Source of the DNA: Rubrivirga sp.
Lineage (GTDB): Bacteria > Bacteroidota > Rhodothermia > Rhodothermales > Rubricoccaceae
Direction of reading: 5' to 3'
Assembly (NCBI GenBank): GCA_012269805.1
Contig: JAAXJP010000083.1
Location: 1,971-13,137 of the forward strand
DNA: 11,167 bases
Below the pieces are notes generated by a model. That model searched no databases. It saw only the letters and a program-made list of their open reading frames with translations, and was not told the DNA's origin. A program made the translations under genes and the position numbers. Shown piece by piece: positions 1-4,886 of this stretch. The stretch's first letter is position 1. Each line of letters opens with the position of its first letter.

Positions 1-2382
1 GAGCGGGCCACGGTCGAGTTCGACGCGAGCCGGACCTCGCCTCTGGCGCTGGCCGAGGCCGGCCAGCGAGCGGGCTACGACGTGCGGACCGAGGAGGTGA
101 GCTTCGCCGTCGGCGGGATGACGTGCGCGGCGTGCGTCGGCCGCGTCGAGCGGGCGCTGCAAGGCGCGGACGGCGTGGTCGAGGCGAGCGTCAACCTGGC
201 GACCGAACGGGCGCGCGTGCGCTACGCGGCCGGGACCGACGTCGAGGCGCTCTTCGAAGCCGTTCGCCGGACGGGCTACGACGTCGTCGAGGCCGTGGGT
301 GGCGCGAGCACGGAGGACGCCGAACGTACAGCACGCGAGTTGGATCGCCAGCGGCTGCGGCGACGTCTGCTGTGGGCGGCCGGGCTGTCGCTCCCGCTCT
401 TCCTGATGGAGATGGTGCCGATGGCGATCCCCGGCGGGATGGCCTTCGTGGATGGGCTGGTCCCGATGCACACGCGCTGGCTCGTGGCGTTCGCGCTCGC
501 GACGGCCGTCCAGTTCGGGCCGGGCTGGCGGTTCTACCGCGCCGGGTGGGCGGCGGCGCGCCACGGCGCGCCCGACATGAACACGCTCGTCGCGCTCGGG
601 ACGTCGGCGGCCTACGGGTACTCCGTCGTCGCGACGTTCGTGCCGGGCGTGCTGCCCGAGGGCGCCGTCCACGTCTACTACGAGGCGTCGGCGACGATCA
701 TCACGCTGATCCTGCTCGGCAAGTGGTTCGAGGCGCGGGCGAAGGGCCAGACCTCCGACGCCGTCCGGGCGCTGTTGGGGCTCCGCGCCGAGACGGCGCG
801 TGTGGTCGAGGGCGGTAAGGAGCGGGAGGTCCCCATCGACGAGGTGGCCGTCGGCGACGTCGTCCGCGTGCGGCCCGGGGAGAAGGTGCCGGTCGACGGC
901 GTGGTCACGGAGGGTACGAGCTACGTCGACGAGTCGATGGTGACGGGCGAGCCGGTCCCGGTCGAGAAGGGCGCCGGCGCCGAGGTCGTCGGCGGGACCG
1001 TGAACCAGGCCGGGTCGCTCTTGGTCGAGACGACGCGCGTGGGGGCCGACACCGTCCTCGCCCAGATCGTCCGGCTCGTCGAGGAGGCCCAGGCGTCGCG
1101 GCCCGCGATCCAGGCCCTCGCCGACCGCGTCGTCGCCGTGTTCGTGCCGGTCGTGCTCGTCGTGGCCGCCGTCGTGTTCGGCGTCTGGCTCGCCGTCGGC
1201 CCGAGCCCGTCGCTGACCTACGCGCTCGTGGCCGCGGTCTCGGTCCTCATCATCGCGTGCCCGTGCGCAATGGGCCTCGCCACGCCGGTCTCCGTGATGG
1301 TCGGGACGGGGAAGGCGGCCGAACTGGGCGTCCTGTTCCGGAAGGGCGAGGCGCTCCAGACGCTGTCCGAGGCCGACGTCGTCGCGCTCGACAAGACGGG
1401 GACGCTCACCGAGGGGCGGCCGACGCTGACCGACGTCGCGCTGGCGGAGGGCGCGGGTCTGGACGAGGCCAAGCTGATCCGCTTTGTGGCCGCCGTCGAG
1501 GTGCCGAGCGAGCACCCCGTCGGTGCCGCCATCGTCCGCGCGGCGGACGAGCGAGAGATTGACGTGCCGACGGCGTCCGACTTCGAGGCCGCGCCCGGCT
1601 TCGGCGTGCGCGGCACGGTCGAGGGCCGCCGCGTCGAGGTCGGGGCCGACCGCTACCTCGCCCGCCTCGGGCTCGACGTGTCCCCGCTGGCGGAGGCTGC
1701 GGGCGCGCTCGCGGCCGTGGGCAAGACGCCGCTCTACGCCGCCATCGATGGACGGCTGGCGGCGGCGATCGCGGTCTCCGACCCCGTCAAGGCGACGACG
1801 CCCGCGGCCATCGACGCGCTGCACGACGCCGGCTTGCGCGTGGCGATGGTGACGGGCGACAACCGTGCCACCGCCCAGGCCGTGGCGCGGCGGCTCGGGA
1901 TCGACGAGGTGCTCGCCGAGGTGCTCCCGGCCGACAAGGCCGAGGCCGTCCGCCAGCTCCAGGCCGAGGGCGGCCGGGACGGCGGGGCCGCCCACGTCGC
2001 GTTCGTCGGCGACGGGATCAACGACGCGCCGGCGCTGGCGCAGGCCGACGTCGGCGTCGCCATCGGGACCGGGACCGATGTGGCCATCGAGGCCGCCGAC
2101 GTGGTCTTGATGCGCGGGGACCTGACGGCGCTCGTGGACGCCCGCGCGCTCTCGGCGGCGACGCTCCGGAACGTCAAGCAGAACCTGTTCTGGGCCTTCG
2201 CCTACAACGTCGTGCTGATCCCGGTCGCGGCGGGCGTGCTCTACCCGGCGCTCGGCGTGATGCTCTCCCCCGTCCTCGGGGCGGCGGCGATGGGACTCTC
2301 GTCGGTCTTCGTCCTGACCAACGCGCTCCGGCTGCGCCGCTTCACGGCGCCGGCCGTCGGCGCGTCCTCGGCCGCTCGGTAA
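1..2382 (+). CDS. copA: Cu+-exporting P1B-type ATPase, 5' truncated
   Basis: Inner-membrane heavy-metal pump that exports Cu+ (or Ag+) from the cytoplasm using ATP. The frame is open from base 1. The first 28 codons read as the tail of one HMA domain (ending AGQRAGYDV), followed by a second HMA domain with GMTCAAC at codons 39-45, so the protein has at least two HMA domains and starts outside the window. Further motifs: TGEP of the actuator domain (codons 315-318), CPC in the transport helix (420-422), the phosphorylation site DKTGTLT (D464), the nucleotide-binding HP pair in SEHPVG (H505-P506) and the hinge GDGIND (670-675). The last helices carry YN followed by P, and [15 protein letters not shown]; with CPC these are the Cu+ (P1B-1) signature. 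A GTG at 82 is not taken as the start because the coding homology continues upstream. A CorE-like sigma gene follows after 46 bp, which fits copper control. Substrate call is strong by family; Cu versus Ag cannot be separated. Confidence 0.96.
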
Positions 2383-2428
2383 CGCTTGGCCGCCGACTGC
2401 GTTTGTAGCGGTGAACGCCCTCCGTACC

Positions 2429-3241
2429 ATGTCCCTCTCCCCCACCCTGCTCGAAGCCGCGCTCACCGCCCAGGGCGAGCCGCTCCTCGCCTACGTCCGC
2501 CAGAGGCTCGGCCCCGACGTGGCCGAGGACGTGGTCCAGGACGCGCTCTTGAAGGCGGTCGAGGGCGCGCCCGCGATGGACGACGAGTCCGACCTCACCC
2601 GGTGGCTGTGGCGCGTCGTCCGGAACGCGACCGTCGACGCCCACCGCCGACGCGACGCCGCAGGCCGACGCGAGGCGGCGTGGTCGGGCAAACAACCGGA
2701 CGCCGAGATGCCGCCCGAGGAGGCGCCCCGGCTATGCGCGTGCTACCGCCCGCTCCTGGCCGACCTCGCGCCGGACGCCGCCTACCTGATCCGGGCCGAG
2801 CTCAACGGCGAGCCGTCGGCCGCGCTGGCGGGGCGGCTCGGCGTCTCGCCCGGCGCCCTCCGCGTCCGCCGTCATCGGGCGCGGGGCGCGCTCCGCGAGC
2901 GGCTCGAAGACGCCTGCCGGGCCTGCGCCGGCTGCCTCGACTGCACGTGCGACACGCCCGACTCCCCCGTTTCACACGCTTCCCTTTCACCACCCTCCCC
3001 CAGTCCCATGAACACGAACACCCAGAACGACGAGACCCTCCGCTTCGGCATCGAGGGCATGACCTGCGGCGGCTGCGTCGCCTCGGCCACGCGCGCGCTG
3101 GAGCGCACGCCCGGCGTGACCGTCGAGCAGCTCACGCTCGACGGCCCGGCGGTCGTCCGCCTCTCGGACGGCGCCGACCGCGACGCCGTACGCGGCGCCG
3201 TCGAGAGCGCGGGCTTCCGGCCCGTCTTCGACGCCGCGTAG
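2429..3241 (+). CDS. CorE-like (ECF44-type) sigma factor in frame with a C-terminal HMA domain
   Basis: Predicted ECF sigma factor, 270 residues from ATG 2429 (an in-frame GTG at 2411 would add six). Region 2 lies at about residues 14-75 (VAEDVVQDALLKA, then WLWRVVRNATVDAHRRR). Region 4 lies at about 118-160 (LAGRLGVSPGALRVRRHRAR). The linker between them holds C-A-C at 103-105, and region 4 is followed by five cysteines at 163, 166, 169, 172 and 174. A linker CxC plus a C-terminal cysteine-rich domain is the layout described for CorE of Myxococcus xanthus, which senses copper directly without an anti-sigma factor; no anti-sigma gene is seen here. After a Ser/Pro-rich stretch (about 175-193) the frame continues into an HMA domain with GMTCGGC (C213, C216). 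The gene lies 46 bp behind copA, its probable target. Odd: I know of no CorE-type factor with an HMA tail, and the linker codons look non-coding, so two genes are possible. Sigma call is firm, copper sensing is inference. Confidence 0.85.
   Translation: MSLSPTLLEAALTAQGEPLLAYVRQRLGPDVAEDVVQDALLKAVEGAPAMDDESDLTRWLWRVVRNATVDAHRRRDAAGRREAAWSGKQPDAEMPPEEAPRLCACYRPLLADLAPDAAYLIRAELNGEPSAALAGRLGVSPGALRVRRHRARGALRERLEDACRACAGCLDCTCDTPDSPVSHASLSPPSPSPMNTNTQNDETLRFGIEGMTCGGCVASATRALERTPGVTVEQLTLDGPAVVRLSDGADRDAVRGAVESAGFRPVFDAA
3008..3241 (+). CDS. HMA-domain copper chaperone (alternative separate start inside the sigma frame)
   Basis: If translated from ATG 3008 this is a 77-residue free-standing HMA protein of the CopZ/Atx1 type, which would carry Cu+ in the cytoplasm to CopA. 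It has GMTCGGC near the N-terminus (C20, C23) and ends FRPVFDAA, a usual length and layout for such chaperones. Support for a separate start: the ATG follows a C-rich leader ending CAGTCCC, like the leaders of other genes in this window, and the 19 codons before it have many A/T third positions, unlike the flanking coding sequence. Against it: no stop codon separates it from the sigma frame and there is no Shine-Dalgarno sequence. The domain is certain; whether it is made alone, only as the tail of the sigma factor, or both, cannot be decided from the sequence. Confidence 0.5.
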   Translation: MNTNTQNDETLRFGIEGMTCGGCVASATRALERTPGVTVEQLTLDGPAVVRLSDGADRDAVRGAVESAGFRPVFDAA

Positions 3242-3827: not shown

Positions 3828-4886
3828 CTACGCGGCGACCGGTTCGGGCACCAGCTGCCCGGTGATGCCGAGGGCCTCGTTGGTCTTCTCGATGGACGTG
3901 GCCCCGTCCGCCTCGATCTCCGTCAGCGCCCGGATGGCGTCGATGGTCTCGGGGATGACGATGGCCTGGTTGTCGACCATGTAGGCGTAGAACGCCTCGT
4001 CGCCCTGCACCGTCAGCATGTCCTCCCAGACGGCGACCTCGTAGAGGTTGTCGTGCGGGCGGCCGAGGTCGGCCATGAGCTCCTTCACCGAGTTGAGCGC
4101 GACGAGGCCGTCGGCCATGCGGATGAACGCGATGCGAGACGAGGCGCGGAGGGCACCCAGCACCTCGTCCTTCGAGGCCTCGCGCGTGAGCTGGACCGTC
4201 CAGTAGTGGAGGTGGCTGAGGGTTTCGGGCGCCTTCACGGCCATCGTCACCACGTCGAGCTCGGGGTCCACGGTCTGCGCGTCCGGCCCCTGGTGGCTGG
4301 GGATGTCGGCCTCGGGGACGAGAGTGTTCATGATGCCGCCGAGGTGGCTCTCCCACGGGTCGGTGGCGCGACGGATGAGCACGCCGCGAGCCTTCTTCAA
4401 CAGCCCGGCCTGTTTGAGCGCGGAGAGCGTCCGTACCGTCGAGGTCGTGTTGCACGAGACGACGCGCGTGCTCTGGCGGCCGAGCGCGGTGTCGTAGTTG
4501 TTCTCGGCGGTGAACGAGTGCCCGGTGACGGCGTGCTTCTCGCCGCCCTGCACGATGAACTTGATCCCGCGCTCGCGGTAGCGCTCGACGTTGCCGGCGG
4601 CCACCTTTTTCGGCGTGCAGTCCACGACGACGTCGGCGGCGCCGAGGAGGTCGTCGAGGGAGCCGGCCGGGTCGAGACCGGCCTCGGTCATGGCGCGGAC
4701 GTGCTCGAGCGTCGCCCCGAAGAGCGGGTAGCCCTTCGCGCGGGCCACGGCCACGCGCCAGTCCGTCGCCACGTCGGCGACGCCGGCGAGGGTCATGTCG
4801 TCCTGCGCCGCCACGGCGGCGGCGACGCGCTTGCCGATGACGCCGTAGCCGTTGACGGCGACGCGGGTGTTTTCAGTGTGGGTCAT
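3828..4886 (-). CDS. gap: type II (archaeal-type) glyceraldehyde-3-phosphate dehydrogenase
   Basis: Cytoplasmic enzyme, 352 residues, oxidising glyceraldehyde 3-phosphate with NAD(P)+. The sequence follows the archaeal type II GAPDH pattern, not the common bacterial GapA pattern: VAVNGYGVIGKRVA (dinucleotide fold, residues 9-22), VVVDCTPKKV (87-95), IVQGGEKHAV (111-120), catalytic VVSCNTT (C145), LIRRATDP (170-177), then PSHQGPD (196-202) and VIPETIDAIRA (310-320). Family members are tetramers and often use both NAD+ and NADP+. Here D38 stands near the end of the second strand where many archaeal proteins have Lys; an acidic residue there might favour NAD+, a weak inference. The ATG at 4886 has a possible weak Shine-Dalgarno GGAG 9 nt upstream. 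It lies 42 bp after the UbiB gene and downstream of phosphoketolase, whose product it would consume. Bacterial homologues are less common than GapA, so acquisition by transfer is possible; base composition matches its neighbours. Confidence 0.93.
   Translation of the reverse strand: MTHTENTRVAVNGYGVIGKRVAAAVAAQDDMTLAGVADVATDWRVAVARAKGYPLFGATLEHVRAMTEAGLDPAGSLDDLLGAADVVVDCTPKKVAAGNVERYRERGIKFIVQGGEKHAVTGHSFTAENNYDTALGRQSTRVVSCNTTSTVRTLSALKQAGLLKKARGVLIRRATDPWESHLGGIMNTLVPEADIPSHQGPDAQTVDPELDVVTMAVKAPETLSHLHYWTVQLTREASKDEVLGALRASSRIAFIRMADGLVALNSVKELMADLGRPHDNLYEVAVWEDMLTVQGDEAFYAYMVDNQAIVIPETIDAIRALTEIEADGATSIEKTNEALGITGQLVPEPVAA

Follow-up and report, generated by a model that had tools for sequence, protein, structure and literature searches.

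The window analyzed here, an 11,167-nt stretch of DNA from Rubrivirga sp. (genome G000), contains the 3′ part of copA, whose product matched the Cu(I)-ATPase family of NCBIfam (TIGR01511, ATPase-IB1_Cu) at 600.9 bits against a cut-off of 397. Directly behind the copA stop codon (TAA, 2380-2382) lies a single uninterrupted frame of 270 residues, running from its ATG at 2429 to a TAG at 3239-3241, in which both an ECF sigma factor and an HMA domain are encoded (Table 1). This one-frame fusion was confirmed as an observation. The sigma-HMA gene has as its neighbors copA and two frames of the opposite strand, a ferredoxin-like one (identified by eye) and a gene for a type II glyceraldehyde-3-phosphate dehydrogenase. 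The latter (3831-4886, minus strand) encodes a phosphorylating enzyme of the archaeal type in a bacterium and scored above both cut-offs. In locus L013, an outer-membrane efflux protein (NodT/TolC-like, under the cut-offs) is encoded divergently from copA at 3-1208 on the minus strand; an outer-membrane efflux gene is also reported in the corE region of Myxococcus xanthus (PMC3107203).

Table 1. Features of the copA/sigma-HMA locus, in window coordinates.
Feature	Position	Strand	Basis
copA, Cu(I)-exporting P1B ATPase with two GMTCxxC motifs	1..2382	+	begins upstream of the window (C601:1794); TIGR01511
Candidate ECF-type promoter element of the sigma-HMA gene, GTAACG-N15-CGTTTGT	2379..2406	+	putative activity
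CorE-like ECF sigma factor joined in frame to a CopZ-like HMA domain, 270 aa	2429..3241	+	frame, Pfam, relatives, model
Sigma region 2, residues 19-76	2483..2656	+	Pfam PF04542 (Sigma70_r2), E 5e-10, over cut-off
CxC between sigma regions 2 and 4 (C103-A-C105)	2735..2743	+	both Cys invariant in 48-row alignment
Sigma region 4, residues 119-155	2783..2893	+	Pfam PF08281 (Sigma70_r4_2), E 2.6e-4, under cut-off; helices in model
Cysteine-rich tail CxxCxxCxxCxC, residues 163-174, shortened CorE-type CRD	2915..2950	+	alignment; pN/pS 0.05
Linker, residues 175-193, C/T-rich leader-like DNA, predicted disordered	2951..3007	+	GC3 0.65; no third-position excess; pLDDT
Internal ATG (Met194), at which a free 77-aa CopZ-like protein probably starts	3008..3010	+	conservation
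HMA domain, residues 206-263, MTCGGC (C213, C216)	3044..3217	+	Pfam PF00403, 29.4 bits, cut-off 24.8, E 1e-6

The sigma part of the protein passed the cut-off of TIGR02937 (sigma70-ECF; 43.6 bits against 42.9), while its best NCBIfam match, SigZ, fell below the cut-off of that family (73.1 bits against 168.65), and the Sigma70_r4_2 match reached 21.0 bits against a Pfam cut-off of 25.7. The tail that follows region 4 contains C163, C166, C169, C172, and C174, of which C172 was nearly invariant and the other four were invariant in the 48-row alignment. The HMA motif, MTCGGC at residues 211-216, is the MxCxxC of CopZ-type chaperones, and the HMA part scored 38.6 bits against NCBIfam CopZ_AFE_1862, under its cut-off of 85. 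The structure of the 270-residue protein was predicted using AlphaFold2 on 48 sequences and was found to consist of confident sigma helices and a complete HMA fold at residues 203-267, with residues 172-199 predicted to be disordered (pLDDT under 50). Since the pTM of the whole model was 0.40, the prediction fixes the domains and not their placement relative to each other. Foldseek matched the model to the ECF sigma factors SigH, SigL, and SigW and to the HMA proteins HMA7, PacS, and CopZ, in agreement with sequence searches of solved structures.

The protein was compared with CorE and CorE2 of M. xanthus (CorE-like, formerly ECF44 and now grouped with ECF238). Like these, it is a two-domain ECF sigma factor with a CxC in the linker (residues 103-105), a C-terminal cysteine-rich domain (CRD; residues 163-174), and adjoining copper genes, all as read in the first-pass annotation, and its candidate promoter has the AAC...G spacing of CorE-type promoters; unlike CorE, it carries an HMA domain joined in frame. 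We regard the sigma part as CorE-like and probably copper-sensing on the basis of these sequence features. By the published positions, the window tail, CxxCxxCxxCxC, is set against C181-C184-C189-C192-C194 of CorE (CxxCx4CxxCxC; PMC3107203): C163, C166, C172, and C174 match the order of CorE cysteines 181, 184, 192, and 194, and the middle stretch is two residues shorter, a correspondence drawn from the order and spacing of the cysteines rather than from an alignment with CorE. By the same order, C169 would stand in the place of Cys189, which is reported to be the main copper-activation residue of CorE (PMC3107203). Among relatives outside the clade described below, which were taken from the top of two protein searches and are not a census, the CxC was found in 82 of 85, and all 85 possess a 4-residue CRD loop (CxxC-x4-C) that includes a histidine. 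Within the clade, the loop has two residues in 39 of 41 proteins and four in the other two (P0040 and P0041, both unfused), and the histidine occurs in none of the 41; P0038, P0043, P0044, P0056, and P0057 did not fit the pattern used for scoring. The loop histidine is a feature of the relatives found here and not a published criterion for CorE-like proteins, and the text of the CorE paper does not mention histidine by that word (PMC3107203). The tail had been described earlier as the CorE type, which holds for the cysteine cluster as such but not for its length.

The distribution of the tail cysteines is reported to decide the metal in CorE and CorE2 (PMC8999054), and the different spacing in the window would fit a sensor that answers another soft or borderline metal (Zn, Cd, or Ag), in the manner of CorE2, which responds to Cd and Zn. 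We consider such a sensor quite improbable here, given that the gene and the shared promoter element stand at a Cu-ATPase, that the fused domain is CopZ-like, and that the cysteine in the place of CorE Cys189 is kept (C169, if the order of the cysteines is followed).

Several further CorE-like sigma factors were encountered. The window genome encodes a second one (G000:C167; L010, 484-1104) with CLC in the linker, the tail CTACPDHGFHACDC, and no HMA fusion; sigma factors resembling it, 42-45% identical to that of the window, are present in G001, G003, G007, and G029. The CorE-like sigma factors encoded at loci L023-L026 (genus g6) are unfused; their linkers contain CRCF or CECF, and CISCPHYTYFDCDC is an example of their tails. 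A Corallococcus genome was also found to encode CorE-like sigma factors, one with the tail CGACAAHGCLDCSC; no frame bearing the HMA motif turned up in a 6.4-kb stretch of it, and a copper neighborhood was not established.

Both parts were found in one frame in 31 more full-length proteins (P0002-P0032; 66-99% identity), two of which (P0002 and P0016) are named Rubrivirga marina by their source, and in two further, partial proteins (P0035 and P0038). The joining of an HMA domain to the sigma factor in one frame behind copA, as first proposed from the window, is therefore real and mostly conserved. At the DNA level, six distinct genomic copies were seen to contain the fused frame (one each in G000, G001, G002, and G039 and two in G003), and each of them stands behind a copA-like frame. 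The copy in G007 is split over two contigs and is 99.3% identical to that of G001, in two stretches totalling ~9 kb around the gene (L070 compared with L072 and L073). These two genomes are assigned to different genera, and the near-identical stretch points either to recent transfer or to misbinning. A search of 114 genomes of the order produced matches in 15 at an E value of 1e-15 or better, and the fused frame was read in six of the 114 (G000, G001, G002, G003, G039, and, split, G007); the reading for a downstream HMA gene left out the matches in G071, G098, and G038. For G039, a member of another family, transfer or misbinning may account for the copy. One fused protein, P0011, lies on a 199-kb contig labelled Sandaracinaceae, which reflects either transfer to Myxococcota or a mislabelled assembly.

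A contig scan across genomes gave 22 loci. A match across both parts was obtained for one of them, L045, the locus that was read, and it is identical to the G002 stretch over 8655 bases. Outside the clade, no HMA domain was found among the best 120 of 1206 profile-search hits, and a plasmid search returned three partial matches, all to the sigma part only. Most of the fused rows are unnamed in the databases; the names given are mainly sigma-70 family or ECF sigma factor, and one row is also named HMA domain-containing protein. The genome of the window is fragmented (751 contigs) and 81% complete, so that an assembly error is conceivable in which a missed stop codon or a frameshift joined two genes. 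An artefact of assembly or sequencing was nonetheless ruled out, its probability being vanishingly small, by the presence of the same frame in the 31 other full-length proteins, which come from several sources, and, in G039, G002, G001, and G003, by its presence on contigs ranging from 33803 to 4711327 bases.

Phylogenetic analyses were performed using 52 sigma parts, with P0035, P0038, P0043, P0044, P0056, and P0057 left out and the long branches of G029, P0048, and P0052-P0055 flagged. A single supported clade (100/99) takes in all 32 fused rows and eight unfused ones, 40 in total, and the fused or unfused state changes at least eight times on the tree, three of the changes being forced by well-supported branches. 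The first-pass annotation had asked whether the HMA domain is fused in orthologs and had named a stop codon consistently separating the two parts as evidence against the fusion; the domain is fused in 32 of the 40 clade rows and not in the other eight, and part of the clade, rather than the orthologs consistently, shows a stop or an apparent frame slip between the sigma factor and the HMA domain. P0033, P0034, P0037, and P0039 stop within the linker or just beyond it and P0036 right at its start, and the tail of P0033 can be read as the start of an HMA domain in another frame. The unfused proteins P0039, P0033, and P0041 pair with the free HMA proteins P0133, P0141, and P0150, respectively. 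The two members of each pair come from contigs of identical sizes (88432, 167139, and 29539, respectively) and on that account presumably lie on the same contig.

In G029, which lies outside the clade on a long branch, the sigma gene ends in TGA and is followed after 17 nt by the ATG of an HMA gene whose first six codons, ATG AAC ACG AAC ACC CAG, are identical to those of the HMA part of the window. G001 encodes a free 75-aa HMA protein (G001:C3) directly behind a different copA-like gene, with no sigma gene intervening, and the free form also occurs in Rubrivirga litoralis. As the parts are separate in G029, in G001, and in the unfused relatives within the clade, separate genes are likely to be the ancestral state and the fusion a loss of the sigma stop codon. 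Loss of the loop histidine, shortening of the loop, and loss of the stop codon may have followed one another in that order, a path that is only suggestive, since the tree does not resolve the base of the clade.

A Met stands just before the HMA domain in 33 of 34 fused proteins, and with this Met as the anchor none of the other columns between -16 and +7 was above 28/33; the exception is P0026, a protein from a short contig that is fused and lacks the internal Met. The corresponding ATG of the window, at 3008, matches the start of the free HMA protein in G029 and in G001:C3. In the six DNA copies, with G003a not paired with G000 since the two are nearly identical, differences in the linker numbered 82/62/78 at codon positions 1/2/3 (pN/pS 0.80; GC3 0.65), and 97/75/75 (GC3 0.65) when the linker was re-anchored on the Met, again without an excess at the third position. 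The sigma part, the CRD, and the HMA domain did show a third-position excess, with pN/pS of 0.47, 0.05, and 0.41, respectively, and GC3 of 0.94-0.99. The dozen residues after the Met likewise lack the excess but have a GC3 of 0.98, so the missing excess is not special to the linker. Taken as a whole, the linker resembles a C/T-rich leader sequence that has come to be translated. No Shine-Dalgarno sequence was seen before the internal ATG. The pyrimidine fraction in eight start contexts of the window, several of them with gene names assigned by eye, ranged from 0.45 to 0.80 (0.80 for the HMA and 0.60 for the sigma start), and a C/T-rich start context is therefore neither unusual nor universal.

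These observations suggest that the HMA part is also made alone, from 3008, as a free CopZ-like protein. The fusion had earlier been proposed to let the chaperone be made at a fixed ratio with the sigma factor. A fixed ratio is doubtful, because the HMA domain stands alone in relatives, its own ATG is kept in nearly all fused proteins, and a free chaperone is probably made too. If the free chaperone did all of the HMA work, the HMA tail on the sigma factor would be idle and the loss of the stop codon nearly neutral. The leader-like linker with its retained ATG, the nesting of unfused relatives within the clade with its repeated changes of state, and the free HMA genes of relatives are all consistent with an idle tail. 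We nonetheless hold it to be improbable, for the fusion is kept across 66-99% identity, in-frame insertions and deletions are somewhat enriched, and P0026 could make the fused form only.

Upstream of the Met, at least seven in-frame changes of length were counted among 31 fused rows, against four apparent slips (binomial P 0.039; P 0.10 with two stop cases added). The slips (P0033, P0034, P0037, and P0042) and the stops (P0036 and P0039) were read from protein tails without DNA, and among them a matching free HMA protein was found only for P0033 and P0039. Not counted in the test were P0040 and P0041, as possibly ancestral, and P0142, which looks like one more slip. The counts lend weak support to selection for keeping the frame, and the conservation of the frame may be weakly selected or neutral. 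They also bear on the possibility that the fusion protein is itself the functional unit, in which the HMA domain would either load the cysteine tail with Cu(I) or strip it of Cu(I) in cis and in this way determine the threshold or the shut-off of the sensor, and the internal Met would be an inherited residue. The prevalence of the fusion in the clade, the excess of in-frame changes over slips, the fused state of P0026 without the Met, and the missing loop histidine in the same clade all speak for it, as does the known transfer of copper from a chaperone to a regulator in trans (PMC7558416). Eight of the 40 clade rows manage without the fusion, however, the linker DNA shows no protein-level constraint, the Met is the most conserved residue of the linker, and the linker is predicted to be disordered in a model that leaves the placement of the domains unfixed. 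On balance, we think it unlikely, though with a real chance, that the fusion protein works as this unit.

A candidate ECF-type promoter element precedes the sigma-HMA gene. Its -35 part overlaps the copA stop codon, and it ends 22 nt before the sigma ATG. A second element lies before copA, outside the window (C601:1745-1772; the copA ATG of G000 is at C601:1794). All six fused copies, and G007 as well, have the element in both positions; its -35 part lies over the copA-like stop codon in six of seven loci, whereas in G002 the copA-like frame runs on past the element; in the second copy of G003 the copA start could not be read, the bases behind the copA element being masked. L013 contained two element matches, against 0.01 expected. 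A search for the exact motif GTAACG-N14-16-CGTYTRT in eight genomes returned 15 matches, 14 of them at copA or sigma-HMA and one elsewhere (G039:C35); G004, G029, and the reversed control gave no match to the exact element. The motif was derived from these same loci, so the matches at copA and sigma-HMA follow by construction and the scarcity elsewhere is the informative part. When one mismatch or none was allowed, five genomes gave 17 matches, 12 at copA or sigma-HMA and five elsewhere, and the reversed control gave four. In G029, the variant GTAACC...CGTCTT occurs before the sigma gene and again downstream of its HMA frame. From the AAC to the G of the -10 part the element measures 17 nt, and CorE promoters of M. 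xanthus are reported to have 16-18 nt between the two (PMC3107203), a spacing that agrees with CorE-type promoters at copper genes. From the placement of the elements we infer a narrow, self-amplifying copA circuit.

The HMA part resembles CopZ in its fold of ~70 residues, its MxCxxC, and its position beside copA, and stands free in G001, G029, and R. litoralis; unlike CopZ, in the window it is the C-terminal part of a sigma factor. Its MTCGGC fits the CxGC motif reported for the CopZ1-like subgroup (PMC7558416). Transfer between separate proteins has been described for Pseudomonas aeruginosa, in which CueR is metallated by CopZ1 in trans, and, according to a title cited in the same paper, for Enterococcus hirae, in which Cu(I) is delivered to CopY by CopZ (PMC7558416). 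An HMA-domain gene, MXAN_3427, belongs to the reported CorE regulon, and its locus number follows that of corE (MXAN_3426; PMC3107203). The production of a large protein and a small HMA chaperone from one gene region, as proposed here, is reported for copA of E. coli (PMC7558416); there the large product is the ATPase and the small one arises by ribosomal frameshift, whereas here a sigma factor takes the place of the ATPase and an internal start would give rise to the small product. C-terminal regulatory domains are joined to the sigma factor in ECF41 (SnoaL-like) and ECF42 (TPR) as in the window (PMC8999054, PMC8103513), but those extensions are not metal chaperones. In our searches of the literature on CorE, ECF44, and ECF238, on HMA domains, and on copper in Rubrivirga, which reached mostly open papers, no description of a sigma-HMA fusion was found, which accords with the first reading that the architecture is not known from described CorE proteins.

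The window genome also contains a second copper operon (L014; G000:C477), with a MerR-like gene (by eye), a copA-like ATPase gene, and a gene for a free 82-aa HMA protein with MTCDHC; G000 may therefore use two kinds of copper regulator and two types of chaperone motif.

The reading that we favor, and hold to be probable, is that a CorE-like, probably copper-sensing sigma factor was joined to a downstream copZ by loss of a stop codon and that the locus yields the fusion and probably a free CopZ as well. The loss of the sigma stop codon would date back to an ancestor of the Rubrivirga-type lineage, and since then translation of the sigma frame would continue across the leader of the following gene and on into its Cu(I) chaperone, which is CopZ-like. 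Copper would load the CxC and the cysteine tail and activate the sigma factor, which would then transcribe its own gene and copA from the two matching promoters. Two products would be translated, the sigma-HMA fusion and, starting at the internal ATG, a free CopZ-like chaperone supplying CopA. The fused HMA domain would be a tethered Cu(I) binder near the sensor site and, lying by an all-cysteine site, might suit Cu(I) exchange in cis. A fuller version, which we put forward tentatively and think doubtful, is a self-chaperoned Cu(I) sensor: a CorE-type site that has lost its loop histidine and two residues would be loaded or stripped of Cu(I) in cis by the HMA domain, and the internal start would also supply the free chaperone of the pump, all in one two-promoter circuit of sensing and export.

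The CorE paper asks which factor works upstream of CorE (PMC3107203), and the naturally occurring fusion to a copper chaperone suggests one candidate for metal delivery to CorE-type sigma factors. The fusion makes a one-gene system in which transfer in cis would be testable through two cysteines or by separating the parts, and the relatives in which the parts are already separate may serve as natural controls.
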